From positions 131,445,706 to 131,509,705 of the forward strand of contig CM067374.1 of assembly GCA_034401795.1 (NCBI GenBank): 64,000 nucleotides of DNA, given 5' to 3'. The notes under the pieces were generated by a model. The model did no database searches, was not told where the DNA came from, and saw nothing but the letters and a program-made list of their open reading frames with translations. Position 1 is the first letter of the stretch, and each line of letters begins with the position of its first letter. The stretch comes from Chaetoderma sp. LZ-2023a (taxonomy: Eukaryota; Mollusca; Caudofoveata; Chaetodermatida; Chaetodermatidae). A program made the position numbers and the translations under genes. This document shows, piece by piece, positions 338-32,720 of this stretch.

Positions 338-1375
338 GTTTAAGGTCTAGGTATATAGAGGGGTTAAACGGCTGCTATGTTTGGTCAAGTAAATAAATGA
401 TTGATGAGAGTAAACAGCTGATAGCAGCAACTTGCATTATACATCGTTCTGTTTAATAATATGCACCTTAATTGCCAAGGTGATATGTTTGTGTAATTTA
501 TTTGCAGCTATAATGTGAAACATTTGAATTTATCACTGGGATGTCTGGGTCTGTTACATACACACTTATTCCAATGGTAAATCTTCTAGAAACATTTTCT
601 CTTGTCTTAGAAATATATATTCCTGCAGACAACTGCAAAGACCGGTTTGGCCGACTTGACCTTAAAGAGGTAAGTTGACACAATGGGTCGGTGGTGCTAA
701 AAGACCCACTACCTGGTAAATCTCAAAACTTAATATACAGATGTTTATGCATAAAGCGGTTGTAGTGTGGCAATACTCGCACTTTAACAGCATTTTTGAC
801 AAATGCGATCACTCAATAGTAAAATAGGATGCAAATTATGAATTTCACAAATAATACAATTGCAAGTATAAACAGAACTAACTAAGTAGGCGCAGGTGTT
901 GTTGTGTTACATAAGCATAGGGGTATCGCTAAGTGATTAATTAGTTTCATACCGGATCTATATAGTATTGCCGTTTGCCATTCGGGAATGACGCTGTTAT
1001 TACCTCGTATTTATTGATGATATAATATCGCTTACAATAACCCTTATCAGACCGACTTCAAAATGCACCACTTGCATAGGTCTACTTATTCATATTCAAA
1101 ACGGCCATACAGCTAAATTGTTGATTATTCCTAAATTATTTTAAAAGCAACAGCTTCTAGTCAAATGTGTTTCAAAATCGTCAACACATTTCCTTGTATC
1201 CAGCGTATTTTGTGGTATCACGTGGCTAGAGTCAGTTAGTTACGGAGAACGGAATTATAATAAAAGATGCAAACACGTACATAGGATTCATATGTAGCCT
1301 ATAAGCTAGTTATGCCGGATTGACAATTGTGATAGGTACAGAGTAGCTCAGACATATTATACCATGTTTCCAGGA
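338..1375. other. Intergenic, mostly featureless
   Basis: I see no gene here. A degraded half of the hairpin foldback family lies near 1,140-1,200 (GCAACAGCTTCTAGTCAAAT followed by TTTCAAAA). The rest is AT-rich sequence without clear repeats. Confidence 0.5.
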
Positions 1376-1390
1376 CAAAAACTATCTGTA

Positions 1391-2425
1391 TGGGTGTATA
1401 TTCACCCTCCGTACATACCACGCTTCTCTACCTTGGCTTAAAACCTCGAAAAACCAGAATCGCAAATAGTGAGGTGGCACGAATGCTAGCAAGCCTACAA
1501 CTTCAACGGTGCCCATCAGCCTGGCAAACTGCATGGAAACGCCGATGCCTTGATCCAAATAGGGCTCGTGGAGAACGAGGATAATTATATTGTGAGGACT
1601 GAATGGTGGAAAAGAATGTACACGCACAGAACATCGATCTATACCCCCAACACATATACACGTGGATCAAGGAGGGGGTACGCCCTCTCAAGGAATCCAC
1701 TTCAGCTAAATATTACTCTCAACGATACGTTGAATGCTGACTGCATCGGCGTTCTGTAGATCAACAATCGCCTCATTATCCCAGAATGATACCAAAATGT
1801 GGGGATAGTGATAATTGAGAATAGTTTGATCGCCCAGCTCTGCAAATTATTCCATATCAATAAAACCTGTGCAACACCCTATCATCTGCACGCGATGGAA
1901 TGGGAGAACGGTTTAATCGTACTTTAGCTATAACTTTAACAAAGGAAACCCACCTTGATTGTCGGGGATTGGGATATTCAGCTCCATATGTACTCCTGGC
2001 ATACTGAACTTCAGCCCTCTCCAGCCCACTCCAGCACCGGTATTACCACTGCTAACTTAATGTTAAACTTATACTCACCATCACAATACGTAGCCCTCAT
2101 GCGCCAACGGATAGAACAGGTGCATGAACTCTTACGTGACACATTTCCCACCGCGCATGACCGCGAAATACACGGGAGCCCATATGAGGCTGGTAAAATG
2201 GTCACTTGACACTCTGCAAACGCGCCAAGTAAATTAATTTACAAATGGAAAGGCCACTATCAAGTGATAGGTAGGAAGTCAGACGTGAACTACCAACTTC
2301 GTGCCTCGGATGGCCTGACAGCAGTCAACCACTTCCATCGCCAAAAGCCTTCCATTGGTGTGGATACAAAGCCTACACTTGGCTCTGGTACACTACGTAA
2401 TGCAAAGCACCCAGACCGGCATTTC
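1391..2425 (+). pseudogene. Ty3/gypsy-type pol remnant (RNase H end and integrase)
   Basis: Pieces of a gypsy-type polyprotein can be read in changing plus-strand frames. FTLRTYH (1,401-1,421) resembles the RNase H region that normally reads RTDH, so a conserved acidic residue appears to be Tyr here. PGKLHGNADAL (1,520-1,552) is the usual RNase H end. An integrase-like stretch follows: LIAQLCKLF (1,826-1,852), a GERFNRTL segment (about 1,903-1,926), HSSTG (2,027-2,041) and, in the C-terminal domain, SDVNYQL (2,279-2,299) followed by HFHRQKP. The distance from RNase H to integrase core is shorter than usual, so the zinc-binding N-domain is probably deleted. At least two frameshifts are needed. 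No LTRs were identified. It is a fossil with no coding potential. Confidence 0.75.
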
Positions 2426-2892
2426 TTTGGAAACCTGTATGCCTAGCATCAACTGCCCACATCACGATGCAGTTTTGGCCTCAATCCTGGCTCGACTGTT
2501 TGGGGCCCACTAAAAGTTGCAATAAAAATGTTTTCTACCATTTTACTTACTGATATGAGTGTTAGAGGGTTATGAGAGTTAATGCTCATCCAGATAATCT
2601 GAGTATTGTGAGTACAGCAAATAACAAAATAAAACGTGCTGGTGTAATTTTTGAAAACAATTGGAGATAGAAGACAGTGTTGTGTATCGGAAGATTCCGA
2701 ACAGGCTACCAAAATGGTCTAGATAGCTTGATGCTAATCGTTTATATATGTGTACGTGCGCATGTTTTTGCTCTCTATTTAGATCCAATGTGGCGCATAA
2801 ATAGAGATCATGTACGTATTCCGGAAAGTTATGTGGAGTGGGTGTGAGTGGTGCATGCGTGTTTGATGGTATTTCCACCGAGACAACTTCCA
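2426..2892. other. Intergenic, nothing recognised
   Basis: AT-rich sequence downstream of the gypsy-type remnant. I see no gene, repeat array or LTR boundary. Confidence 0.4.
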
Positions 2893-3132
2893 CTAACAGG
2901 CCGCAACGACCACATGATTTAATGTAATGGCGTGGCCTGTGTCATTAAAGATCCTAAATGGAATGTGGTCTTTTCCAGTGGTGAAGACTAATATTCGTGG
3001 ACTGGCATATTGAGAGGCCGCCATGTAGGCGGAATCAGGTTCTGACATGGCGGCGTGTGTAGTGTGGTGTAGGAAATTGACCAAGCCGTTAACGGCTTTT
3101 AACTGATTTATAAAAGCATCCAATATGGTCAT
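2893..3132 (-). pseudogene. Possible gypsy-type pol spacer remnant
   Basis: A 79-codon minus-strand frame contains SPRILVFTTGKDHIPFRIFN followed by a stretch ending HVVVAAC. The beta-rich pattern (a short strand, then IPFRIFN, then a hydrophobic strand) resembles the region between protease and reverse transcriptase in gypsy-type polyproteins. No catalytic motif is visible and nothing flanking supports it, so this is a weak call. It could be an unrelated chance frame. Confidence 0.25.
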
Positions 3133-3815
3133 GGGAAAACTAGACTAATCAAAATTCTACAGGGACTGATCTACCTACTAGTCAATTAGCCAAATGCTAT
3201 TAAAACTGAATGTCGGCTAATGAAAAACAGAATTGGCTAGCCTTTGGCAAATGATTAAAATTAATTTAATTTCCTTGATTGGTTGAATCCTGACTAATTC
3301 CACCATTAAAATTGCATTGCAAAAATTCCTATGGCAGCAACAACTTTCAGTCAAATTAGTTTTAACATATTCTACACATTTCAATATGTTAAGACCATTT
3401 TGTATCTGGACTGTCAAATTGATAGTATTAAGTGATGATGACTGACTGCAAACATGTTCATAAGTGACATTGAAGTAAAGATGTGGCTAAAATATTTACT
3501 ATTTGCCTAACAAAAACAGTATTTGGCTAATGTATTGGCTAGAATATTGCAACAGCCAGGTCTGTCCCTGATTCTGTATACATGATCTGAAGCCTGCATC
3601 CATAGCATCCTTCCATCCAAGTCTGGTTGAAATTGCCCCATCAGTTAATGAGGAGTAGCGTTTTAAATGATATTCGTTAAATTTTGCATACAAGTTCTGC
3701 AAAAACCACACCGATTAGTATAGTGTCTATTATAGACTCGCTACGGGTGGGGCTAGTTAAGTTTTAGGAATTGTGTCACGTTTGCAAATAGATCAGACAC
3801 TTGTTGGCCAATGGA
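3133..3815. repeat. Degraded foldback material
   Basis: Around 3,325-3,400 a half-copy of the hairpin foldback family is visible (GCAGCAACAACTTTCAGTCA, then TTTTAACATATTC). Words such as TTGGCTA recur at 3,230-3,240 and 3,520-3,540. I see no gene. Confidence 0.4.
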
Positions 3816-4130
3816 CGTCATAATCAATTACAGCATAAATTACTCGATTTAGACCGTCTTAAACGCTCAACCGTCCGACACGCTATACGAATTGTATGAC
3901 TTTGCCATTTAATAAGCATTATGTTGAATATTTTAAAACGAATTTGACCGAGCGCTGTTGCTGCCATTTGCCAGCAACAGCACCTAGTCAAATTAGTCTC
4001 AAAATATAAAACAGCTTAACTGTATAGTTTGCTGGAAATTGATAGTCAGGGCGTTCAGCAATCGATTGCTCCCAATACGGCGAACTGGAACGGCCCATTT
4101 CTTTATTCAGGTATCCAACGTTCTAATGAT
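3816..4130 (+). repeat. Hairpin foldback repeat (family 1), copy 1
   Basis: The order of parts matches the other copies: GACGTCAT-containing left part (about 3,826), CTATACGAATTGTATG, ATTTAATAAGCATTATG, then a long hairpin with arms built on GTTGAATATTTTAAAACG and its complement around GCTGTTGCTGCC/CCAGCAACAGC (about 3,920-4,015), then AATCGATTGCTCCCAATACG. No open frame. Best read as a non-autonomous (MITE-like) element. Confidence 0.65.
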
Positions 4131-5383
<1,253 letters not shown>

Positions 5384-5436
5384 GAGTAGTAGTAGTAGTC
5401 GTCGTCGTTGTGGTAGTAGTAGTAGTAGTAGTAGTG

Positions 5437-5504
<68 letters not shown>

Positions 5505-5510
5505 CGTAGT
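5384..5510. repeat. (AGT)n microsatellite at the 5' side of the LINE
   Basis: About 127 bp of AGT/TAG units with GTC, GTG and CGT interruptions near both ends. It directly precedes the 5' end of the LINE and matches the (TAG)n that directly follows the LINE 3' end at 11,994. Poly-Ser and poly-Leu frames here are artefacts. Confidence 0.9.
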
Positions 5511-5916
5511 CGAAGTGAACGCACGCGTTTATTTAGCTCTGCAATTGCTGCCCGAATTTGCTGGTTTCTAGCGCGATTTTGTAGATAAATTGTATACATA
5601 TATTTCGTATTAGTATTTCCTTTCAAACTTTATGTTTAATTTGTAAATTCTTGTTTTGGTTGCAGCGCATTTTGTGTCTCCATTTTCTAAAGGCACTCCT
5701 CTTAGCTGGCGGTTTCAACCATTTAATAGGTCTCCTCTTACTGTGGTCAATGCAATACATTTCTCCCCGCGCCAGTATGCTATTTCTATAGTTCGTTGGC
5801 TAGCGCATTATATTTGGCAAGATCGCTTGAGTGAGTGGATTTAATTCCTTTGTCATTTGTAAGCGCTTTGCCTAGTACTTTGATTATATAAATCTTTATA
5901 CCCGGTCAACTCGAAC

Positions 5917-6179: not shown

Positions 6180-7518
6180 ATGGCAACCTATAAGCGTACC
6201 CTAAGCCGTAAGATAACAACTACGGCTATCGACGTGTATCATGGGTTAAAGGACGTCGTTGGCGCGGGACCTCCTGCTTTTCAGGGGCTTATCACTGTTT
6301 CTAAAACTGTATGGAATGTAACAGTGTCAAATGACGGGGTCAAGGAAAAGCTTCTAGAAGATGTTCTTATTGTAAAAGGCTAAGTTTGTAACGTAGAGGA
6401 AATCGAGTCAGATAGTTTGCTAGTGAAGATGAAAGTTCCACTAGATATTCCAGATGACAGAATCATGAATGAACTCAAGAAGTATGGCAAAGTGAACAAG
6501 ATTGAACAGGAAACGTATCCCTTTGACAGAACGCTAGAAAACGGTGTAAGACGCATCTGGTTTGATAAAGTGGATAGCCCGTTACCAAGCAGATTGCCGC
6601 TTGATGGCAGCTTTGTCCTGCCCTTATGATATAGAGCGCAAATTAAAGAGTGCCGGATCTGCCTAAGTACTGACCATTTGGGAGCAGATTGTCCCAATCG
6701 AACCAAATGTTTGCTCTGTGGTTCAGTTGACCATTTTAAATGGCGCTGTACAAAAAATCAAACAAGCCCTCAGTATCAGGAGATAATCGCCCATTAAAGG
6801 ATGCAACTGGGTCCAATGCTTTTGGAGCAATCACTACGGAAGCTGTTGTTGTGGTTCATGCCACTGAAAATGACACAAACAAATCATCAGATCCTGTTAA
6901 AGTAACTACAGTTGATGAAATTCAAGTATTAGAGGAGGGTATAACCTTAAGTCAAGAGAATAATCAAAATGCAGTGGAGTCAAACGTGGCTGTAAAGGAC
7001 ATGCAGGAAAATGATGATCTTACAGAAGAGCCAGTTTACAATTCCTTAGAAGATGAATTAAAATTAGGGCAGGATAAGGTTAGGACTCAAAAGACGGAAA
7101 GTTCAGTCGATTTTCCGCTAAGCCCACTTGATTTAAGTCAGCTTGATGATATGGGAAATGACGCTCCTGCCAAACGTAACTTAAGTAGCAATAAGCGTCA
7201 TAAGGAAGGCAATAGCTCAGAATCTGAGATTGAAGTAAATTATATGGATGATGATACAATGTCAGTTGCAGAATCAGATGTGTCCATTCAAACACAGAGT
7301 TCACAGATGAAAGATGAAATGGTAATGTACCGATCAGAAGGGGTGACGTGTTAGTGCCATATGCAACGGCGAGAGGCGTGAAAAATCGCCGATTGCGCCA
7401 TGATTCTGGTATTTCCAAATATGAATATTTGTCTGTGGTAGAACTAGGAAATATTGAATTCGCAGGAAAATTAGGTAAATGGTCTAAGATGCGAGCTCAA
7501 AAAACCAAATTAAGTTAA
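6180..7518 (+). pseudogene. LINE ORF1 (zinc-knuckle RNA-binding protein), broken
   Basis: The start ATG sits in CACCATGG, a good initiation context. About 445 codons can be followed. The first part is a short nucleic-acid-binding-like region (DVYHGLKDVVGAGPPAF, then PDDRIMNELKKYGKVNKIE). A pair of zinc knuckles follows from 6,651: CRICLSTDHLGADCP, then CLLCGSVDHFKWRC. The acidic, Ser-rich C-terminal half ends at TAA 7,516-7,518. In-frame stops lie at 6,381 (TAA) and 6,627 (TGA), and frameshifts lie near 6,750 and 7,340. In intact relatives this protein coats the element RNA and helps target-primed reverse transcription. ORF2 follows within a few bases. Confidence 0.8.
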
Positions 7519-14924: not shown

Positions 14925-17900
14925 TAGTCTAGTAGATAAAGTAAAAATCGTTCAAATTGTGAAACAATTACCAAATTTGGCATGTAAGAAGTTTTAGGTA
15001 TACTCTTTCAAATAGAAGCAGGACACACGCGATTGGGCCCACCGGGATCCGTCATCTTGCAATCTTATATTAAAGTGGCCGGGGTAATATTATAAAGTCT
15101 CATTTAAAGTAAATTTGAATTTGAAAATTTGAAACGAAAATTTCTAGGCTCCGCATTGCCATTTTCAAATAATTCGCCCCTTGCACTGCACATCGTCAGC
15201 ACCTGCCCTTGCCATAGTTAACAGTCTTACGCCTTGTAGTGTATGATAGTTTGTGAGTCTTTGTCGGCATACACAATGTCTTAAACGTGTCCGATTGCAG
15301 ATCCTAGTGCAAGTACCTCTCAGTGTTTGGAAAATCTGGACTCATCAAATGTAACAGACTGGCAGCTTTGTGTTCTCTGCCAGACAGAAACAGATGAGAG
15401 ATTAGTTGATCCTGGACTATGTATATATATATATCAGGGGAGTGATGAGGACTGTGGCTATAAATGTATTGCTGAACACCTGTATCACTTCCACAATCTC
15501 AATTGCTTACCCATGAAAAAATATATTTCCAGGCTGGACACTGGTGACGGTATTGAGACAACTCTTCGGACATACAAAGCACGATGGCATAAAAGCTGTC
15601 GAAATAAAATTGATAAGCAAAAGCTTCTGCGTACTCAGAAAAGAAAAGCCAAAGAAGATGAAAACCCGAACAAAGTCCAGTTAAAACCAGGCATACTTCT
15701 GTAGCAAGTTCAATGAAAAGGACAGAAAATTGTTTTTCTGTGATGAAGATGGCACTAATGAACACCTTCGCAGTGCGTTGACATCAGCAGTTTATCACCG
15801 TGTTCGAGGATATACCTACATATTACAGGGCAGAACACTTCTAGGCAAGCTTTCGGAAGGGGATATGCCTGCTTTAATTGCAAGCGACCGTCTCAGTTGC
15901 CTGCCTGCTCTGCACAATCGTGTTAGACAGCACCAGACAGAAAGCACCACTATTGACCTAAATATGAAGACTGATAGTCTAGTATTAGCAGAATTAGTTT
16001 CATACATAGACGAATTCTGGCAGGACAAAACACTTCAAATTTTTAAACGCCGTGATTTAGTAAAACTATATGAAACACCACTGAGTGAAAGAGATCATTG
16101 TTTTTCAGGGAAAGTGAAAAGTACTAGACTGAAAGAAATATTGCTATGTCTAATACCAGATTTGAGAGCTCAACCTCAAGGGCGAGATGTCATTGTGATG
16201 TTTAATGCAGACATTGGTGAATCCATCAAAATCGTGTGTTCATATAATTCTGATGGTGCTGCAGGTCACTTGGTATATGCTGCACACATATTGAGGCAAG
16301 AAATCATACAACATGACCATTCCGTTAATGTTAATTTCAAAAGGGGATGTGAGGTTGAAGTTGTCCCAGAAAGTGTTCTCACTCTTGGGAAAATGATTTT
16401 GCGAGGCACAAGTATTAAAAAAGCAAATGATTCACCAGATGTTGTAACAAGTGTATCATTAGCACTCACAGATGTTAGTGTTTAATACCAAGAAAACGCC
16501 CAGTGACACAATATAGAACTCATATACGTCACGCTAATTCACGAGAGACAGCCATTGCTATATACACTGGACGGATTATTCATGCCAAAACAAGACAAAG
16601 AGAGTTGTAAAGCCATGGCTTATGCATATTATATGATAGAACAAAGGACATTTCTACAACCCTTGCAAATAGCGCCTGTGCATAATTTGAAAGAGATGGT
16701 TGTCTCTGTCCCTCTACTCTGAAAAAGGATGTCTTCACTGTTGGAGCAGTCGATACTATCGAACATAATCCATCTGCAAGGTATGATATGGACTTATTTC
16801 ATGGAACTGCTATATCCCTGATTCAGTTCCCATGTCAGGAAAATCCAGGACCTAAACAAGACCAAATAATGATAGATTCAAATGTTAGCCACCAGAAAAC
16901 ATTATCTCCACTACCAGCTGAATATTCAGAAGTGATTCCAGTGGAACTATCAACAAAAGATCGTATTACACCTGTAACAGAGGGACACGTTACAGCACAG
17001 CCTACTTTATTAGCCACATATAAAGAACAGGAATATGGTTGGTTGGATTTCATGGCCGAACGCATACTTAAAAAGGAGACATTAAACCCTGGAGACATTG
17101 TGTCATGGGCAGCATACCATGCTAAGAGGCAGCCAGATATCCTTAGTATTCAAACTACACCATGTGCTGAAAGTAATGGCTTGGCCAGTAGACAGTAGCT
17201 CTGTCTCTCAAATTGCGCTTATGCCTCTATTTGTAGAGCCAGCAAACACAGAGGCAATGACACTACATGAAATGAAGCTTGTGGACAAAGCTACTCAGAT
17301 TTTACACTCACGTCAAATTCCTGTAATAACTATGGATCAACCATTGTTTTCCATTTCGAAGAGCATCCAATGGACATGGCCAGATATCGCTGGTGAGAAC
17401 AAATGTGTGGTGATAATGGATGACCTTCACATAGAAATGAATTTGCTGAAACATCTTGTTGACTTCCTAAATGGCAGTAGATGGACAACTATTGTTATAG
17501 AAGCATGTGTCACCACCCCAGGCCGAGCTGACGCAATATTGAAAGGATCCCATGTAACTAGGTCAAGATATGTGCATCAGGTAAGAGCAGCAGCCTTACA
17601 TGTGTTGCACCTCCCTGCGTATGATACATATACGAACTCTCTTCCTTGTCCTGGCCAAGCCATTACTTTCAGCACATGGTGTAGTTTGAATACTAAGGAT
17701 ATTACGCAATTCCAATACTGGACTATGGTTTTGGAACTTGAACTACTCGCCATGCAGTTTATTCGCTCAGTGTGTGAACGCAATTTTAATCTCTATATTC
17801 AGTGTCTTGGGAAGATAGTACCATGGATGCTCTCTTTGCGCCACACAAAGTATGCCAGATGGCTGTCAATTCACATAAAATATATAGTTCCGCTATAGCA

Positions 17901-19347
17901 AAAAGCAACGCCAGTTCATGCAGAGTTCATAAGAGGACATTTTGCCGCACCGAGAACAGCACATATCTTTTCTGCTATATATTTAGACCGAGCCCATGAA
18001 CAGATGACTGAGAAGATCATATGTGATGGGGCATAATAGGAATAACAAATACTTCATCTGCCCTGATAAGATGGATCACAGCTGGTCCAGAAGTGACTAG
18101 AATTGTTCATGAGTTTGAAACTTCATTTCAGCTGCTTACTAAGATAATAACACAACACCATGATCAGAGTGTCTCAATTCAGTCTCGGTTTGTAGAACAT
18201 GTCAAGGCTGTGGTTGCTAAGTTCGAAGAATACGGCACCCCATTCAGTGAGGACAGCACATATTTGATAGTGTTACACACCAAAGAGGTAATGGGAGAGA
18301 AGTCAATATCCACTCTTCAAAGCATCAGGAAAGTAGGACAGTCACAGTATGAAAATTGTATTGATGAAAGCCTGGTCAAATGATCAAACCCCATTTCTGA
18401 CATCCTCGCAAAAAATAACATGCATCTTTTCCAGAAGACACCCCCACCCCCACCCAAAGGAGAATCAAAGACTTTATATCAAATGAGCACTCTAAAAAGT
18501 AATCGTGAATTGTTCTCCAGAATGTATATTTTGTGCCAATCCAGAAATGGAGATATGGATGGATTTTTCAGGCATGAAAACCAAGCAGCTCCACCTTCTT
18601 TATCAGCTGAGAGCATGCACCAAGTCAGACCGTATTGCATGCTTCGAACGAGTGATCCCTACTACCCATTTTTTATGGTTTAGTTGTCATAAATATGCAG
18701 CTCCCCAAATCCGGGTTCTACTTTTAGTGACTATGCCGAGAAAATATTCATTCCATGTCTAATGACGAATCTTGAATCTTCAAAGCATCTGGACGTAGTA
18801 TAGGATCAGTACATTGACACCAGGTTGAAAGAATGTGCCAGGCTGAAAAGAGGCTCAGGAACTCGCATTGTTGTGAATGCATCCACACAGATCCCGAAGA
18901 AGTACCAACTCTGCACTTGTGGTGGCTCATGATATAGTTAGAGTGGTATTAATACACAACGAGTGCACAGCTCAATTGGAATATGTGATCCTGCCAATGA
19001 AGTTCAAAATATATCAATTTCGTTGTAATTCCTGCTTTTTGCTTATGCCATAGAGAATATTGATATAAGGAAATAAGCTATGTATTCGTAAAAAATCACA
19101 TCAGCTCCTGTGGATAGTAAAACATATAAACAGTCACCGTATTCATCTATATATGTGTCCTAGAAGGTAGGGTATTATATAAATAAGTTTCGAAAGCAGC
19201 CATGATGAAATTCAAAATGGCAGCTAAAATATGGGTCTGATCATATATTTCCTGCTCTTATTGGAGCATACAAAAATCTATAAGTAAGCCAATTTTCATA
19301 CTTGCTTCAAATTTTGAACGATTTTTTCGACTTAATCTACTAGACTA
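14925..19347 (+). mobile_element. Element A: TIR DNA transposon, Academ-like
   Basis: A 4,423-bp element inserted in the middle of an array unit. Its ends are inverted repeats starting TAGTCTAGTAGAT (14,925) and ending ATCTACTAGACTA (19,347). Weaker matches continue inwards for about 100 bp (AAAATCGTTCAAA; AGCAGGA). Aligning the broken unit with intact units shows a 3-bp target duplication at the CAG position, now TAA (14,922-14,924) and CAA (19,348-19,350). It carries one long broken gene on the plus strand. TIRs starting TAGTC, the 3-bp duplication and the gene family match element B. Academ membership is inferred from the protein of B. Confidence 0.8.
15327..18930 (+). pseudogene. Element A gene: N-terminal part of transposon-encoded protein
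   Basis: Successive plus-strand frames read as one protein. An N-terminal zinc-binding region has CVLC at codons 15-18, then GDGIETTLRTYKARWHKSC (ending codon 91), and a second block from 15,730. The middle region has DVFTVGAVDTIEHNPS (about 16,722), FHGTAISL (16,798), TMDQPLFSI and the SHVTRSRYVHQV segment (about 17,548), AHEQMTEK (about 17,995), WITAGPEVTRIVHEFE (about 18,070) and SRNGDMDGFFRHENQAAPP (about 18,541). Frames shift or stop repeatedly, for example at 15,702, 16,483, 17,196, 17,896 and 18,381. The reading ends near 18,930, before the nuclease-like half seen in element B, so the C-terminal half appears deleted. Its biochemical role is unknown to me; in an intact copy it would be expected to help mobilise the element. 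Confidence 0.75.
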
Positions 19348-20868: not shown

Positions 20869-20932
20869 GGATCACCGCACCAAGCTTTTCAGAATAAATG
20901 TTAAGGCTTGACTGAAATAGAAATTTGTCTTT

Positions 20933-23900
20933 TAGTCCTGGAGCCAAATGGGGTTCTTAGGAGCCCCATTACACCCCTCTGTAAGAGAATGTTCATTGGT
21001 ATCGAATGAGCGGTCTATATATCCTCTTTCAGAAAATATATGTTAGATATGTGGCTGAGTGGTTGACTAAAAAGATATGAAACATTTAAATAGGTGACAC
21101 GACAGATACAATTCTCGTCTCTAATTTAAAATGATTTAAGTGAAGCCTTTTAATTAACCGACAATAGAAAAACATAACATGCAAGTTATAATGACAATAA
21201 TTCAAAAACATAAATTCGTAGAAATATATTCCTGCATAGATTTGGTTGTTCGCCCTATTTTATGATTGGAATACCGTTTGCTGCGCTTAGCTCCCATCAT
21301 CTGGTAAAAGGTCACCCCCAGGATAAGATGACAATTGTTGACTCTGATAGAGAATTGTTTGATAGATTATTGATTGTATCAAAAGAGAGAAAGCTTGATC
21401 TAGTAGACCCTATGATGACAAGTATGAGAACCACGTGCTGGTTCTCACCATTGTCATCATTGCCTTCACACGAATACGCAAGGCTGCACTTCAACCCAAG
21501 TTTGGCACACTTGCAACGATGCAAAGAACATCTTGATTTGTCATAGTTGCATGGTGTGAAATCTACAAGTTCATCTGGTAATGCAGCTTGCATCATCAGT
21601 AGTGGCACTAGTATGTCTTCTTCCATATCCCATCCATGTTCTGTTGGAGATGGTATATGAATGCTTGCTTCCAATGGCACATTGGTAATTAGGCCTGGGA
21701 AGATGTTGAACTAGACTGTCAGAACATGGAGGAAGATGCACACTCTGTTTTGGTGTCTTGCAGAATAACTTGTATCGCAAATTGTTGATCTCTACTATAT
21801 CTGATTGGGGTTGGTAAACTCTGCACACCATCTCGGTAGATATGTCTTTTACCTCATCTGGAGGATTAAACGTGTCTCCCAAGTTTACGAGGCTCTAAAA
21901 CTTCTGTAGGTCAGCAGTGAGAATTTTCCAACCAGTCATCTTTCCAAGGACCTTGAAACAACGTGTACTGCCGCTGCGTGAAATGGCAATAATAGACATA
22001 ACATAATATAATAATGGGCATGAGTCCAAACTTTTCACAGATGCGGTTAGTCGAAATGAATCTACTGGATGTTCTGTTTCCAGTTTCAAACCACATCTTT
22101 CCTGGGATAAACTCATTGAAATAAATCCCCAATACCAACACGTCTGTGTCTGTGGACCATATTATGGCTTGTTCATTCTTGAACCGTTTCGCAGAATCAA
22201 ATGCATGAAGAAATAACCAGCTGTCAGCTTCCTCTTTGGTACTGTAAATTACTTTCAGATTCTGCATCTTATTTGAGGCAATGCACGTAACCAACCTTTC
22301 CATGGGCACTATACCCACCAGCCAAAACCAGTATTAGATTTGGCTGAAGGTCAAATTTTCTCTTTTCTGTTAATCCTGTGAATGCAACGTCATTGAAGTT
22401 GTTTTTGCTTATGGGGCTAGAGAAAAACGAATTCACATTCCTTGGCAACACCTGACCTCGTGGTTTTATTCTAATTTCTGGGGACTTGACGGTTTGGCCT
22501 CTTCTTCATCACTCCCCGGCCTTGAATGATTCTTTTACACCATACTTATCGGCTATGGCATGCACAATACCGTATTCTTTAAAAACACAACAAACTCTTC
22601 TAGGCCATCAAGTAAGTCCCCAACAGTCTTGATTCCATAACGCAATGGTAACTTATGGAGACACGTCCTATAATCCAGAAACACTACTGTCCTTGACTTT
22701 CTCTCAGGTGTGAGTTCAGGGAGAAATGTGCGTTGATCCACTGATGAAGAGGTTAAACTTTCCAAGTCTCTAAGCAGTCGTGCCTTGTTTATGTTGGCCA
22801 AGGATCCACCCATGTTCACCATAGCCAGGGGTCCACTGGATAATTCATAAGTAAAGAGCTGTTGGAAATCAAGCTCTCTCTCTCTCGTTTGATACAATCA
22901 ATAATCTACCAAACAATTCTCTATCAGAGTCAACATATCTCATCTTCTCCTTGGGTGACCTTTTACCAGCACATGGATATATGCTAATGTGGCAAGTTTG
23001 GGGCTCTTTATGGTATCCTAAATTATTCTGTATTTGACTCTAATCTGTCTTTAACATAGTTTTTTAGTGCGTTTTGCCCTTCTTTCTTATTTCCACTTTA
23101 GAGTAGCTTTTTCCTTCCTGCAAATGTGAATGATGCCCCCTTGTCGTGATTTGGAATCTCTGATAAGCGACTGCTCAAGAACTAGATTATGACTACACAC
23201 TGTTGAATGTTGTTCCCTCGTATCATGTCACAGCATGCTTACCATCTTGGAATAGTTGATGAATTGCAGGTGATATTCCTGGCATTTTCATCTCAGCAAG
23301 ATATACCAGACCCCATCTTGGGTAAGTATGATGACCATATGCGAAGGCATAGCACAATATTTCCGCTACACACCTAAGGTTATCGGCCCTGTTTGCAGTT
23401 TTCAGCAGAAATATAATCTAATGCTAATCGTATGTCATCAATATACTGGTTCGAAAACTGGAATGTGAGAGATTCTTTATCTCCAATCTCTTGGAATTGA
23501 AGTTAGATTTCTTCCCATCTCGGCAGGAAATCTTGAATTTATGAAACAATGCCTTTACCCTTAATTGACCGTCTTCATCAAGTTCCTCACATTTAAACAT
23601 ATGCTGCATCTCACCTTGTAATGTCTGGCAAAGCCTGTCTAATGTTTCAGTATCCTCCTTCGCCACCTTTTGCTTCCTAGATTGTCCAAACAAGAAAGGA
23701 CCAAAAGCAACTCCTTTAACTAACACATCCTGTAGGCCTCATAGCGCTTGCCCATGAGCTTCGGGTACAAATCCAAGATGTGAAAGCCTCAAAATCTGAG
23801 GATATGATGGTGGAACTTATCTCAATTGCGGAGACGGACTTTTGAGCAGCAATGTAGAGTTGGAGATCTAACATGATGAGAGGATGTACCTGACCTAAAG

Positions 23901-26125
23901 ATAATATCTGCTTTTCCAGAGATTTCAATGCTGTGTGAATTCTGTTCATATGTGTTGTCAGACCCGGTACAATAGGGTTATACCCAATAAGAGTTCTTGC
24001 AGTATTCTCATTATAGCTAAGACAACATCGTGCATATGAGGCATTATACACACTGTCGTGTGCTATAGCTAGAACCATTTTATGAGCTAGTGGGTCTGTT
24101 CTTACTTTCTCTTCTTGTTTACCAAACATGAGTAGTTCTAGGAAAAGGAAAAGGTCACCAGTTACCAGTGTTTCAACACTCTGTTGGCGTATGTCTCTAA
24201 AATAAATACATTACTTTGTTTCTAGACCTTGGCATTTACGCACTGAACTGCACAGAGCTAGAGTGGTTTGAAATAGGACTACGTTTGTCGAATAACCTTG
24301 TGGAATGGAAAGATCAGTTGCTGTTGCTTCCTCAGTGGCAATCTGTTTTACTGAAGCTATTTTGTTGATTACCCCCTTTATGCCAACGTGTATACTGTGT
24401 ACAAATCCAGATTGGTTGATAGAGGATTGAGACTGAAATATTACTGTTTGCCCATAGTGTTTTATAAGGCTGTTCTTTTGGCTTTTCCGTACTATATCGT
24501 TGGTAATCTTCATAACCACACGTTTCTAGATGCCATTGATAGACATGTAATAATGGCCTCATGTCTTATGCTATACCATTTTCGATGTTTTCTTGAACCT
24601 CAATAAGAAGCAGTTCAAATACTTTTGAGAATATGTCTGAGTTTTCCGTTGTAGTATTAGCAGCCCTACCTTTTATGCATTCTGCGTTTATGAGTAAATG
24701 TGACAAGCAGTGCTTGTGATATTTTCCTTCTAATGCTGCAGGATCATGAGCAGAGACCTTTGCAACTGGTGTTCTGTCACCGATCTCCACGGCTGCTGTG
24801 CGCATTTTGTCTTCTAATGCGAGAGTACGAAAATTAACCAAGTGGGTATCACCACGATTCTTTGCACAGTTGCAAATGAAACATCTATTCTTCTCAAACG
24901 GCGTTGCATCTGACCTGGTAGTAATATGATGATCACAAGTGCATGCTGCTGTAGAAGGACGTGCACTGTATTGCTTCAAATTGCAGGAAGCTCGTCGTGT
25001 ATAGTGTTGGTAGCATAAATGGTGATAACTGATAGGAACACAGAATCCGGTCTCAGTGAGTGTTCCATAATCATGTGCAACGTTATATGATTCATCCTTG
25101 TTCCCCTTCATACAAGGGTACAGTGTGTACAAGCCATGTCGTGTAGGAAAAACTAGATTTCCAGTACCTCTCGCTAAACAAATAATGTAGATGGTATTGG
25201 CATCTAGCTCTGTTAAATGTGTTTGTTTTACATGTGAAGGGCCGATATGTATATATGAGTTGGGGTCAATTTTTTTAGCAAAATGTGACACCCCCACTAC
25301 TAATTGCAAATATGTGTGATGAGATGAATCTTTTATAAAATGTTATCGTCTTGCCAGCAAGAATAGAAATCTAAGCAATCTGCACCTTGGTTGATGACAA
25401 GTGTCTTTGAATGGTTATATTTAGAAATTACTGGGACTTACGTATCTGCAGTGTATTAATGGTTATAGAATATTTAGATAGTAACTCTTCATATAATTGT
25501 CAACATGTCGTCTGCTTTACAGTTGTTCATTTACATTGTCGGAAACAACAGATTACGCATCAAGTTAAAAAACCATTTTATTTTTAGATTGAAAAAAAAT
25601 GTTTAAACAAACAAAAGCTTAATGTATAGGAAAACGTATTATACTTCGTGTATTAATTTATTTTAGTAAACTAGCTCCTACATCGTAGAATGGTGTTGTC
25701 CTTAAGGATATACAGAAAATATGCATTGTGGCACCATTTTTAACTAATCTAAATACGTATTGTGACGTCACAATGTAACTTTAAAAGACAAATACATGTT
25801 GCATCGCTTAAATACATTAATTCAAATAAATTATTAGTATATTGCATGTCAATTATTAAATATTGTGGGGATTCTTTGAAGGTTTACTAGGCTAGCATGG
25901 CTAACCTGATTATTTATATGTGGTTATATTGTGCTTAACTTGCTGGTGGGTTAGCCGTATTTAGAGCTCTGTATCTTTTTAGTTAACCACACACCCACAT
26001 GTCCAACATATATTTTCTGAAAGCTGAGATATAAACCTTTCATTTGATGTCAATAAACCGTCTCTTACAGAGGGGTGCAACGGACATCATAATTAGGCTC
26101 TGTCTGGAGAATGGCCTCTAGACTA
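20933..26125 (-). mobile_element. Element B: TIR DNA transposon, Academ-like
   Basis: A 5,193-bp element. The left end starts TAGTCCTGGAGCC (20,933) and the right end, read inwards, starts TAGTCTAGAGGCC (26,125). The arms then share CACCCCTCTGTAAGAGA, TTTCAGAAAATATATGTT and ACTAAAAAGATA, so the inverted repeat is about 150 bp with small indels. Both sides are flanked by TTT (20,930-20,932 and 26,126-26,128), a 3-bp target duplication. It carries a broken minus-strand gene (25,309 to 21,312). It sits about 60 bp beyond the end of the tRNA-like array. Shared TAGTC termini and 3-bp duplications tie it to element A. Confidence 0.85.
21312..25309 (-). pseudogene. Element B gene: zinc finger plus XPG/FEN1-like nuclease protein
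   Basis: A chain of minus-strand frames in changing phases. N-terminal zinc region: CFIC (codons 143-146) to YHKHC (197-201) of the 247-codon first frame, whose start is arbitrary. Nuclease-like half in order: VVFLDYRTCLHKLP (about 22,690), DKYGVKESFKAGE (about 22,545), IKPRGQVLPRNVNSFF (about 22,465), STKEEAD (about 22,243-22,223), STDTDVLVLGIYF (about 22,156-22,118). C-terminal Cys-rich region: HLPRPNYQCAI, PSPTEHGWDMEED and a CXC-like cluster CSLHRCKCAKLGLKC (about 21,500). The order Asp - FDxY/K/R - EEAD - DTDV is that of FEN1/XPG nucleases. Academ transposons are recalled to carry XPG-like nucleases, hence the name. Many stops and frameshifts mean it is dead. Confidence 0.75.
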
Positions 26126-26277
26126 TTTGGTTTGGTAGCTAGTGCAGGTGTTTTGATTTGGAATAAATGGTTCTAATTTGCATCTTGCTTTTCCGCATCA
26201 TCGAGATTCACCATTTCCAGAAGCCGAGTATACCTAATTTTAATGTTGATATTATCTACTTTATCTTTACTCCAAGT

Positions 26278-26760
26278 TTATTTTATGCAATGTATCGGAC
26301 ATAACCTTTCGTAGGTACGGAGCGCTGTCGCGTCCATGTTTAAGAGCTTGAAATAGTACCGAACAGCCCGAATCCAGTGCGAATTTTTCAACCTATCAAA
26401 AGCGTGACGTGGGTGGAACGACATTTGGTCAAGCAACTGGTGGGATTCTGTTGGCTTAAAGTATACTCTATGATCTAAATAGCTAGATTCCATAAGTGCT
26501 AACATTTGTAGATGGTAATACCAGAAAGCGCATTGAGTTATCACATATGGCTGCTTTCAATTTAAGGCCAGCATCATGGTTGTCTAGAATCTGCAGAAAT
26601 TCTGTAAATTGTTATCTTGTACGCGGCCAGATTAAATAGATATCATCGAGGTATCCATTTACATTGAGAGGACGTTTGATTCATTTTTGTAGGACATCTT
26701 CTGCCCACTCAACAACTAAAATGTTGACAAAGCTATAACTGTCTGATTGAAAAATATATC
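26278..26760 (-). pseudogene. Penelope-like reverse transcriptase fragment
   Basis: Read on the minus strand from about 26,740: FVNILVVEWAEDVLQK, then a stop, IKRPLNVNGYLDDIYLIWP (the catalytic YLDD motif, about 26,655), a stop, EFLQILDNHDAGLKL, and then YLDHRVYFKPTESHQLL and SFHPRHAFDRL (about 26,470-26,390). VYFKPT and the following HPRH are hallmarks of Penelope-like elements. At least two internal stops occur, and neither the upstream fingers nor the GIY-YIG endonuclease is visible. It begins about 150 bp beyond the end of element B, with no obvious link to it. Confidence 0.75.
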
Positions 26761-27959
26761 ACCGTCGCCCCAATTACATGGTGGAAATAATCGGCTTTTG
26801 TGGAGCTAATATTTTGATAACAACCGACTTCGTACCTAGAGGTACTATCTAAATTGGCAGAAGAGCCTAGAACGTTCAACGATTTGATTATGACCAGCTG
26901 GTAAAATAGTATGTATCCATTTGTCATCAGTACATGACATGTGTATTATTAGCCTTGTGGCAGAGCCGTGTACCTTGCAAAATGCGATCCCTAGATGTGT
27001 TCACCAGATATTTTTTTGTATCTTAGAGGTGTCCTAATTACGGATTTGAATGATGCTCTCACTGGCACATTGGGGAACATTAAGAAATCCAAGATGGCAT
27101 CCAAGATGGTCGCCATAATACGAAACTGGCTATATCTTGACCCCAGACCAGTGGCTATGACTAGACGGTTTTGGTCAAGGAATCCATATTTTACATTGTC
27201 CAAGATATGGGTTTACTCGGTCTAGGCTTCTAGATGAGCTAGTTGAATAACTCCTGTGTCTTTGACTAGGATTTTGAGGTCATGGAAGGAGTCAGTCTTT
27301 ACATGAACTAACTCATGAAGTAACTTCTTTTGCCACGCTTACGGGCTAGTGCAGACCACCTTAAAGGCTAATTTTCAGGCACCACGTTTATTTGCATGTG
27401 TATAAGAATGTGTACATTCCAAACCAATTGACGTGGCTTAATCGTGCCATATAACATTACCAAGTGTAATTAAAAGTAACTGAAAGTGAAACTGGTTATT
27501 TTCAACGTGAAAAATAACATTTCATCCCAGTAGGTATAGGCCACTGGTGAATTAGTGTTTCGATTATGAATATGCTCAGAAAGTAATGCTACATTGTCAA
27601 ACTAGAAGGTGCAACTGCAAAGATATTCGTGTGACAGAGGCTACACTACTCGATTGATACACCGTTATTAATCTTCATCTTTTGGTTGATCGCCCTCTTC
27701 TCCTTGTGTAGTGAACATTGTACCTAGGTTGAGATATGTCAATTCATCTGGGGAAACATCCACAGAAGACTATACAGACAAGTCGACCTCTGTAGTAGCA
27801 GCACTTCACTTCGCCGCGGGATTTATCATCGATGAATCGATGCATAGAATTTCAGTTGGGGCTTGTACAATAGATGGAGCGGTCACTAGTATACTAGTAT
27901 ATGATACTTTGAGATATCATCACTGAGTCACACATAACTTTGAACTGGCTGATTTAGTT
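26761..27959. other. No gene recognised
   Basis: I see no coding region between the Penelope-like fragment and element C. AAATCCAAGATGGCATCCAA (about 27,086) and neighbouring AAGATGG words suggest old repeat or TIR material. The left end of element C probably lies in this stretch, but I found no TAGTC terminus I trust. Confidence 0.4.
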
Positions 27960-29612
27960 GCTGCTCTTATAATGCTTCCCTCAAAATAGCACCCTGCAGA
28001 TGGGCACGTTTGTCATTTTCAACAAATGCCTCCCATGTTGCTGGAAGTGATTTTAGTTTCAAACTACCTGTGGCCTTTCGGTTTGTAACCTTTCCCAGCC
28101 ATGTTTGATAAAGAACCTTTGGCATAACCCCGGTGACCTCACTTTCATAACGCATTGCTACAAATGATGTGGCCTCATCAGTAACGGTGTTAACATCTCC
28201 TGCAGAGTAACCAATGTTTACGAGTTTGTCCCCTTTCATCAATATCCGCGAGACAGTGACATGTTCGCTTCCAAACATGTATGCAACTATGTCATGGCCA
28301 GATATTACATGATTTGCCATGACATGTGGAATGATTGCTGCATGCTTTTGAACTATAGTACAGTAGCCGCCATATCGACAAGAGCTCTTTGTGAATTGGT
28401 TGTCTCCAACGAGAGACCAAATGTCAAGTTTTGCTTGTGCAACATATTCATAAGGAGGATACGAAGATTAGTTACAGCACACTTCACAACGATGCTACTT
28501 GATGATTCATGTGTTGCTATGGTTACCGTTTGTTGTACAATGATGACATCCTCCTCTTCGTGCGTTGTTTGCATGCCATCGATAGTCCCATTTGAACCTA
28601 ATGTGGGATATGGCTCGATCCTGGAACAACGAGTCTGTATGCAGTACTAGTAGCCTGATGTTTTGGCGATACATCTAGAAGTTGGGAGCACATGAGTTCA
28701 ATTCTCCTTTCCACTGTATCCATCCATGATATGCCGTCATAATTAACTACGTGACGTGTACAATGACATCACAATCAATGAGGTCATTATGACGTCATGA
28801 ATGGCGTGAATACGTACGTCACAAATCCATAGTTGAAGACGGGCTATGCGTTGATGTACGAATTGTATCGCTTTACTATTTAATGAACATGCTGTAGAAT
28901 ATTTTGAAACTAATTTGAATGGGCGCTTTTGCTGAGTTCAGAGATCGATTGATCCCAACACGGACGCGGTGTGGGTGGAGCTTAGATTGCGATGGGGGGG
29001 GGGTGCGGCATAGATAAAAGTGGAGTTGCCTGAATTGTTTTCCTTGTTACAGTTAGAACAACCTTCTGAGCAATAGGAGGAGTATCTAATGTGAGGTTCT
29101 TCTCTCAACACGCCTGCTGGTGTGCATGTAAACTCCTGGTTGCACTTTTACTACTGTAGTCGTAATATCTATCAAAGATAAGGTACACATTACTTTTATT
29201 AGGTTTGTCGATAATGTATCCTATGGAGAGTTCTACAAACAGCATCTTCGACTGTGCCGTTTGTTGATCAGTTAATGATCTAGAGAAGCGGCCATCTATG
29301 ATTAGGACATCCGGCTGATATGATGTTCGGGCTTGGTGTTCAGAATTTAATTTCTTCTTCAGGGTAGTTTTAGTTTTAGTTACTCGTGTGCTGGTAAGAG
29401 TTCATATGAAAATGTATTATACATGCATAGTTCACGTGAATCTTGCAAGCCATGGCTCTTGAATATATCAATTCGGCGTCGAATGAGGCAGCAGAATCAA
29501 TCTTCACACTTTTCTTTTTCTCAGCCATAGTCATAAGGTTTTTGATTAGAGTAGTATAGAATCCTTCTGGAAAATTTGCTGCATATGCCACCTTCTGTTC
29601 TTTGCTTATCAC
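27960..29612 (-). pseudogene. Element C remnant: third relative of the A/B transposon protein
   Basis: Minus-strand pieces in family order: SFDAELIYSRAMAC (about 29,490), PDVLIIDGRFSRSL (about 29,310), VYLIFDRYYDYSSKSATRS (about 29,185), then a foldback insertion, then THEEEDVIIVQQ (about 28,562), NVISGHDIVAYMFG and GDKLVNIGYSAGDVNTVTDE (about 28,230-28,170), and AHLQGAIL near 27,980. The nuclease-like Asp and FDRYY/K/R motifs and the Glu-rich EEED survive. The following acidic DTDV motif appears as VTN, so the site is eroded. Wording differs from B, so it is another subfamily. No N-terminal zinc region or TIRs were found. Confidence 0.7.
28735..29010 (+). repeat. Hairpin foldback repeat (family 1), copy inserted in element C
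   Basis: Carries the family landmarks TGACGTGTACAATGACATCA, ATGACGTCATGAATG, CTATTTAATGAACATG, GAATATTTTGAAACTAATTT, GATCGATTGATCCCAACACG and GGTGTGGGTGGAGCTTAG. The second arm of the central hairpin is missing. It splits the element C gene between its FDRYY and EEED segments, so it inserted after C. Confidence 0.65.
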
Positions 29613-29639
29613 TTAGTATGCCAGTCTTGGATATGGCTT

Positions 29640-29920
29640 ACTGAGTAACCCCATATATTTGGATATTCTAAAATATGCATTCAGTGACCCCGAAACCTAG
29701 TCATAGACACCAGAATTACTTTCCTAGCCGGGCTGGCGGCCAGAATATAGGCAGTTCCGTATTATGGCGGCCATCTTGAATTTCCCCAATGGTGCGAGAG
29801 TGGTATCATTCGGATGCGTAATTAGGACGCATCAACGGTACACATTTAATGAAAACAACTAGGTGTCGCATTTTGCAATGTTCGGCTAAAAAGCAGGATT
29901 TTGGAAACAGACTATGTAAT
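29640..29920. other. Intergenic, nothing recognised
   Basis: Short gap between the element C gene start and the next foldback copy. It contains an ATGGCGGCCATCTTG word of the kind common at old transposon ends, but no clear terminus. Confidence 0.35.
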
Positions 29921-29929
29921 AATGACCGC

Positions 29930-30320
29930 AATTCACCTTTCCAGAGTACCCACCCATCATATGACGTATTACTGAATTGCTTGATGTGTACAATGACATC
30001 ATAATGAATGACGTCATGAATGACGTCGATAAGTACGTCACGAACGCATATTTGAAGATGGTATATGCGTTGTTGTACAACTTGTTTGCTTTTACTATTT
30101 AATAAATATTCTGTTGAATATTTTGAAACTAATTTGATTGGGCGCTGTGGCTGCCATAGGCAGCAACAGCACCAAGTCAAATTAGTTACAAAATATTCAA
30201 CAGCTTCCCTGTATAGTTTTCAGGAAATTGATAGTTAGGGCATTCGGGTATCGATCAATCCCAACACGGCGAGGTGTGGGTGGAGCTTAGCTAGTGATGG
30301 GTGGGCATAGCTAACATGGA
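29930..30320 (+). repeat. Hairpin foldback repeat (family 1), best copy
   Basis: The most complete copy. A left part holds several CRE-like words (ATGACGTCATGAATGACGTC, 30,009-30,028; AGTACGTCACGAA). A long hairpin follows with arms of about 44 nt (30,112-30,155 and 30,159-30,202) around a 3-nt loop, containing TTTTGAAACTAATTTGA and GGCAGCAACAGC. The right part reads CAGGAAATTGATAGT, ATCGATCAATCCCAACACGG and GGTGTGGGTGGAGCTTAGCT. It has no coding capacity; MITE-like. Confidence 0.75.
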
Positions 30321-32329: not shown

Positions 32330-32720
32330 CCCAAAGAAAGAATCCAGTTTAAGCTATGCCTTGCCCATCACTAAATAAGCTACACCCACACTTCGCCCGT
32401 GTTGGGATTGATCAATTCCTGCACTCCATGACTATCAATTCCCAGAAAACTATACAGGTAGGCTGTTGAATATGTTGAAACCCATTTGACCGTGTCCTGT
32501 TGCTGCCTATGCCCAGTCAAATTGGTTTCAAAATATTCAACATCATGCTTATTAAATAGTTAAGACATGCAATGCGTACAACAACACATAGTCCATCATC
32601 AATTAAGCGTTCGCGACGAACATATCTACGTCATTCATGACGTCATTGATTATGACGTCATCCTGATTGAAAAATTGGAAAGGTCCATTTGTTTCATGAC
32701 GTTTCCAGAGATGTTGTATA
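32330..32720 (-). repeat. Hairpin foldback repeat (family 1), inverted copy
   Basis: Reads AAGCTATGCCTTGCCCATCA, CGTGTTGGGATTGATCAATT, AACTATACAGG, the central hairpin (GTTGAATATGTTGAAACC to GGTTTCAAAATATTCAACA), TTATTAAATAG, ATGCAATGCGTACAACAAC and ATTCATGACGTCATTGATTA. This is the reverse of the 29,930-30,320 copy. Confidence 0.7.

Follow-up and report, generated by a model that had tools for sequence, protein, structure and literature searches.

The 64-kb window analyzed here, by which we mean the whole stretch of DNA taken from the genome of Chaetoderma sp. LZ-2023a (2.44 Gb, 2753 contigs), contains two decayed transposons on its minus strand, element B and element C. In our judgment, B and C are probably dead copies of one transposon group of the Academ type (AcademX lineage), in which a single protein joins a DDE transposase to a FEN1/XPG-like (PIN-fold) nuclease. 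A preliminary description of this DNA had noticed FEN1/XPG-like motifs in both elements within 21312-29340, an interval that proved too narrow, as B spans 20933-26125 and C about 26950-29914.

Element B (20933-26125, minus strand) is a whole, degraded DNA transposon of 5193 bp. Its termini, TAGTCCTGGAGCCA and TAGTCTAGAGGCC, are flanked on both sides by the target-site duplication TTT (20930-20932 and 26126-26128, read from the flanks), and its inverted repeats have gap-free cores at 20966-21077 and 25972-26083, which pair at 83% over 112 bp. The protein pieces, all on the minus strand, were located by frame reading and by tblastn with relatives. An open frame of 258 codons (24569-25342) represents the N-terminal part and contains clusters of Cys and His (RCFICNC... 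HKHC); here, the stretch 25186-24446 matched the N-terminal frame of a related locus, L042 (tblastn, E 3.7e-34). The middle part, a putative DDE transposase domain found by tblastn, is frameshifted (23226-24006). The FEN-like domain starts at 22556-22897 with the first Asp (FLDYRTC, 22661-22681; frame reading and tblastn), and its second motif, DKYG..SFK..E, is read in another frame as ADKYGVKESFKAGE (22512-22553), followed by two stops. TKEEADSW (22217-22240) and STDTDVLVL (22130-22156) share one frame (21914-22333; frame reading and genome matches). The fifth acidic motif and helix-hairpin-helix site (21940-21987), recognized by alignment with locus L039, has lost its Asp, GCD having become RSG (AISRSG in B versus ALTGCD in relatives). 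A CXC-like Cys cluster, CSLHRCKCAKLGLKC (21486-21530), was read in the C-terminal part (21315-21710). FLDYRTC, EEAD and DTDV occupy one frame, DKYG..SFK..E and the Cys cluster a second, and the fifth site a third.

Element C (about 26950-29914, minus strand; delimited by its inverted repeats, with ends placed by eye) is a whole but strongly decayed relative of a family with a 1485-codon frame and has another repeat inside it. Its inverted repeats, 26972-27221 and 29640-29881, are 67% identical. The first Asp, in IIDGRF (29285-29302), and the next motif, FDRYYDYSSKSATR (29135-29176), lie in one frame (29108-29401; genome matches and tblastn of L135, L049 and L140). A second frame (28356-28646; frame reading and tblastn) holds the third motif, HEEEDVI (28542-28562), with EEED in place of EEAD, together with the lost DTD site (28452-28484), where C reads CAVTNLR and relatives read DDTDVF. 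The fifth Asp, in SGHD (about 28291-28302), was found in a third frame with the downstream region (27970-28467; tblastn of L049, L140 and L136). Thus, the peptides quoted in the preliminary description are all present on the minus strand and in the order given, but in neither element do they form a continuous frame. Similarly, the set of five motifs is incomplete in both relics, as B lacks the fifth Asp and C the DTD site, although related copies keep these positions; the SGHD of C, which had not been listed, survives.

Copies with intact frames were found elsewhere in the genome. Comparison of a piece of B with its own genome gave 150 scored matches among 3402 candidates, many with long open frames, and a piece of C gave 140 matches when 150 of 411 candidates were scored. 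Among the 140 listed C-type matches, 12 fall within open frames 1485 codons long. These 12 have equal or nearly equal match scores, which suggests recent activity, and the C-type family may still be active. The one that was read, L049, is complete: its frame (1363-5817) lies between inverted repeats at 687-1057 and 6695-7065 in an element of 6377 bp, within which no further open frame longer than 153 codons was present. Its protein, of about 1480 residues, begins with a Cys/His-rich region, continues with a putative DDE domain and then the FEN-like domain, and finishes in a CXC-like tail; the Pfam scan found no helicase family in it. Candidate DDE residues of the middle domain, common to the B and C types with pairing made partly by eye, are the D in FAVDLVP/YELDIKP (its C-type partner matched by eye), the D in TFDLAIY/TFDLKPY/FTCDQQLY, GGFH/GGMH, and the E in GLEDLL/GIEDLL/GLKELM. 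For the middle domain of L031, L032 and L049, Pfam returned only sub-threshold matches to DUF6589 (PF20231; E 5e-4 to 6e-3), a family of unknown function to which the transposase cores seen here may be related; our literature search on DUF6589 found no publication. The Cys cluster that had been called CXC-like is present in B, but the Pfam TCR (Tesmin/TSO1 CXC) matches of its relatives L042 and L040 (18.3 and 18.7 bits; E 0.002-0.003) fell below the cut-off of 23.5 bits, and L049 had no TCR match.

The group to which B and C belong is recognized by the similarity of its ends, by long inverted repeats and, in most elements with both ends located, by a target duplication of exactly 3 bp. Duplications were sought in 12 elements (L031-L038, L048, L049 and the two in the window), and they were exact in 8 of the 10 with both ends located: TCT (L031), TAT (L033 and L035), TTA (L036 and L049), AGT (L037), TAA (L048) and TTT (B). 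In L038 and in C, the flanks agreed at only 2 of 3 bases; L032 had one recognizable end and L034 none. The sequence at the start of B is TAGTCC or a close variant, as it is in the young B-type family and in L049, of the C type. Aligned inverted arms measured 112-382 bp in L031, L033, L036, L049, B and C and 41 bp in L032, and L042 showed no inverted repeat. A 14-base end motif searched in the window with up to 3 mismatches occurred 3 times against 1.8 expected, no better than chance; therefore, the evidence consists of ends paired with a protein and a duplication, and not of the motif alone. Blocks of the CCAAGATGGC type occur repeatedly within both inverted repeats of L049; in the window, those of C also have them (27099-27142 and 29738-29781). 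They are possible binding sites for the transposase or a host factor.

The preliminary description had set conservation of the acidic residues across copies beforehand as a test of its PIN-like nuclease proposal, and these residues proved to be conserved. B and C types are 18-27% identical, yet at the FEN-equivalent positions 83-100% of their copies agree. In an alignment of 26 rows, from which 3 of the 11 fetched C-type stretches (L131, L134 and L138) were left out and in which 13-20 rows have a residue at a given site, the first Asp was kept in 12 of 13 copies, the second Asp site (D..K..R) in 15 of 16, the second Glu and the Asp of EEAD in 19 and 18 of 20, DTD in 18 of 19 and 17 of 20, and the Asp before the helix-hairpin-helix in 18 of 19. 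The ordered acidic motifs of FEN1/XPG, namely D, D..K..R, an E/D pair, DxD and a D before the helix-hairpin-helix, were all found. Four rows from three clades, about 26% identical, are invariant at the D of LLDAS/VVDGM, at D.Y...S.K...R..R, EAD and DTDV, and at CD......G..K..A. The mean top-residue fraction at 19 chosen positions was 0.90, compared to 0.50 over 253 columns, and none of 20,000 random column sets scored as high, in a test that is partly circular because the positions were picked by eye as FEN-equivalent or as motif neighbours.

Profile comparisons point to the same relatives. When a mixed B and C profile (A4) was compared by hmmsearch with 177,635 PDB sequences, five hits were obtained, the best four of which were exonuclease 1 (E 0.2-0.28), aligned at VFD..K..R and GCD...GIG. 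A second mixed profile, A6, which was built from 25 segments of 20 loci with the remaining fetched B-type loci left out, gave 3 hits, all exonuclease 1 (E 1-1.1); the two results are not independent, because their rows overlap. Against a FEN1 set of 75 rows (human FEN1, Rad27 and 73 archaeal sequences, 7 of 80 archaeal loci having no usable frame), hhalign scored all rows at 28.6 and the B type at 25.4, above the maxima in 60 shuffles (22.4 and 21.0, respectively), and in a larger run the observed score of 28.3 exceeded 299 of 300 shuffles. The best alignment placed D/D, FD..K, EA, D.D and GCD...GIG...A in register with FEN1, pairing the conserved residues with D34, D86, K93, E160, D179/D181 and D233 of FEN1.

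Several results weigh against this relationship. Every match fell short of the normal threshold, with hhalign probabilities of 5-19% when the rows were mixed or of the B type and of 0.2% when they were of the C type, and 1 of the 300 shuffles did reach the observed score. Alone, the C type scored 14.3 against FEN1, with shuffles averaging 15.5 and reaching 26.7. Against PDB, a B-only profile (A1) had one hit, which was unrelated, and single-protein searches, including those with L031 and L049, returned no FEN relative. The column rule -M 50 leaves the first Asp unpaired, in a separate profile comparison the alignment was confined to the GCD...GIG block, with a probability of 7.8%, and windows of two rows across the domain were unremarkable; an initial hhalign run with an option later dropped gave no alignment (probability 0.05%). 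Pfam identified an XPG or PIN family in none of the 25 members, and Pfam and NCBIfam scans of the window pieces and their relatives identified no nuclease family. The first Glu of FEN1 EAEA is without a clear partner, the family having EEAD. Nevertheless, the PIN/FEN proposal gained support, since the acids are conserved and the mixed profiles, below normal significance, point to FEN1/EXO1 in the same register. The case is good but not formal proof, and it is carried by register and conservation, not by profile E-values alone.

These results bear on three other readings. A different alpha/beta fold with acidic strand ends might have acquired the same motif order by convergence, as the sub-threshold matches and the failure of the C-type profile alone would allow. 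However, five motif blocks stand in register with FEN1, DTD and GCD are 56 residues apart here versus 52 in FEN1, and mixed profiles ranked exonuclease 1 first in PDB twice, albeit from overlapping rows, so that we regard convergence as very improbable. Chance order of the motifs was rejected on the basis of their conservation across copies. It is also conceivable that the C-terminal PIN-fold domain has RNA as its substrate, or serves only in structure or regulation, and that the DDE domain does all the DNA cutting. In favour of this, many PIN domains are RNases, most eukaryotic cut-and-paste transposases work without a second nuclease, and EEAD differs from EAEA. Against this stands the conservation of the Lys/Arg after the second Asp and of the GCD...GIGK helix-hairpin-helix, which are traits of FEN/XPG and not of RNase PIN domains and which are the very parts matched by exonuclease 1; we therefore consider such a role quite unlikely.

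The third reading accepts a FEN-like nuclease but assigns the elements to another or unnamed superfamily. The Academ placement was made from published descriptions, a point against our own assignment, and the middle domain has only its weak DUF6589 match in Pfam. On the other hand, a 3-bp duplication and a nuclease with no helicase found agree with the description of AcademX in PMC10045372, and the lengths of B and L049 are close to the mean of 5565 bp for curated elements in a report on Academ expansion in bivalves (PMC10294476). We thus find a superfamily other than Academ unlikely. Recent capture of a host FEN1 was rejected, because the 3 places in the genome that matched Pfam XPG_I, presumably exons of host FEN1, EXO1 or XPG, do not overlap any of the listed transposon matches.

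The window holds further repeats. Element A (16479-18905, plus strand), a third, broken relic of the group detected by tblastn of relatives, comprises the middle domain and the start of the FEN-like domain; an inverted-repeat pair at 14925-14981 and 19288-19347 might represent its ends. In and downstream of C, a separate repeat family occurs in both orientations (28789-28996, 29993-30269 and 32364-32661), with inverted pairs 78-83% complementary. An Rfam scan of the window gave no match, and relatives of the transposon were not found in viral contigs searched with two proteins and one alignment.

How might two nucleases cooperate in one polypeptide? The Cys-rich ends of the protein, which may bind zinc, would bind the inverted repeats together with the transposase. 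The putative DDE site would then cut the 3' ends and join them to the target with a 3-nt stagger. The other (5') strand would be cut by the FEN-like site, which might act at the ends of the element while it is being excised or remove a 5' flap once strand transfer has taken place; host repair would fill the 3-nt gaps. The anatomy behind this scheme was observed, namely the ends, the inverted repeats, the 3-bp duplications, the fusion in one frame and residues of catalytic type that are conserved, while the part played by the nuclease is inferred. Such cleavage may be metal-dependent and, as the preliminary description proposed, structure-specific. For the nuclease, we favour 5'-strand cutting or flap removal, because FEN enzymes have this chemistry and the 3' strand is dealt with by a DDE site on its own. 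TnsA and TnsB divide their labour between the strands. As a tentative and somewhat doubtful idea, the protein could be a eukaryotic counterpart of this pair, a single-polypeptide transposase in which the DDE site takes the 3' strand that is joined and a flap endonuclease of PIN fold, once captured, takes the 5' strand. Among eukaryotic DNA transposons, those of the Academ type have received comparatively little study, and the dozen listed full-frame, presumably young copies, in which transposase and FEN-like nuclease are fused, provide material for studying the role of a flap nuclease in transposition.

The domain resembles FEN1, EXO1 and XPG in the order and conservation of its acidic motifs, in the Lys/Arg after the second Asp and in the GCD...GIG...A helix-hairpin-helix. 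It differs from FEN1 in its EEAD, in being about 20% identical, in the distance from the second Asp to the paired Glu (99 residues versus about 74) and in its position inside the 1485-codon frame, which leaves the active site without a free N-terminus. The AcademX nuclease is XPG-like, and AcademX has a Cys8 finger. Because AcademX has been described with a nuclease, this kind of transposon is most likely already known; a nuclease inside a transposon is probably already known as a discovery, and the label "otherwise uncharacterised" in the preliminary description is probably wrong, since the elements fit AcademX. The listed publications, part of longer result lists, included none combining XPG with Academ. 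According to PMC10045372, AcademX is a DDE-class lineage with an encoded nuclease and 3-4 bp duplications. AcademH, of the same superfamily, encodes a helicase and duplicates 9-10 bp, and the difference in duplication length seems to go with the helicase and nuclease encoded. As in the description of AcademX, the present elements have a 3-bp duplication and encode a nuclease-like (FEN-like) domain, with no helicase found; AcademH was rejected, since the L049 protein had no helicase in Pfam and the duplication is 3 bp. Kolobok elements duplicate TTAA at their targets. PMC9587614 places Academ among the DDE superfamilies and describes Kolobok lineages that carry accessory nucleases. In KolobokE, KolobokP and KolobokD, similarly to the elements described here, a DDE transposase is accompanied by another nuclease within the same element, but these additional nucleases are of the PD-D/ExK, His-Me finger and DEDDh types, in contrast to the FEN-like domain of B and C.

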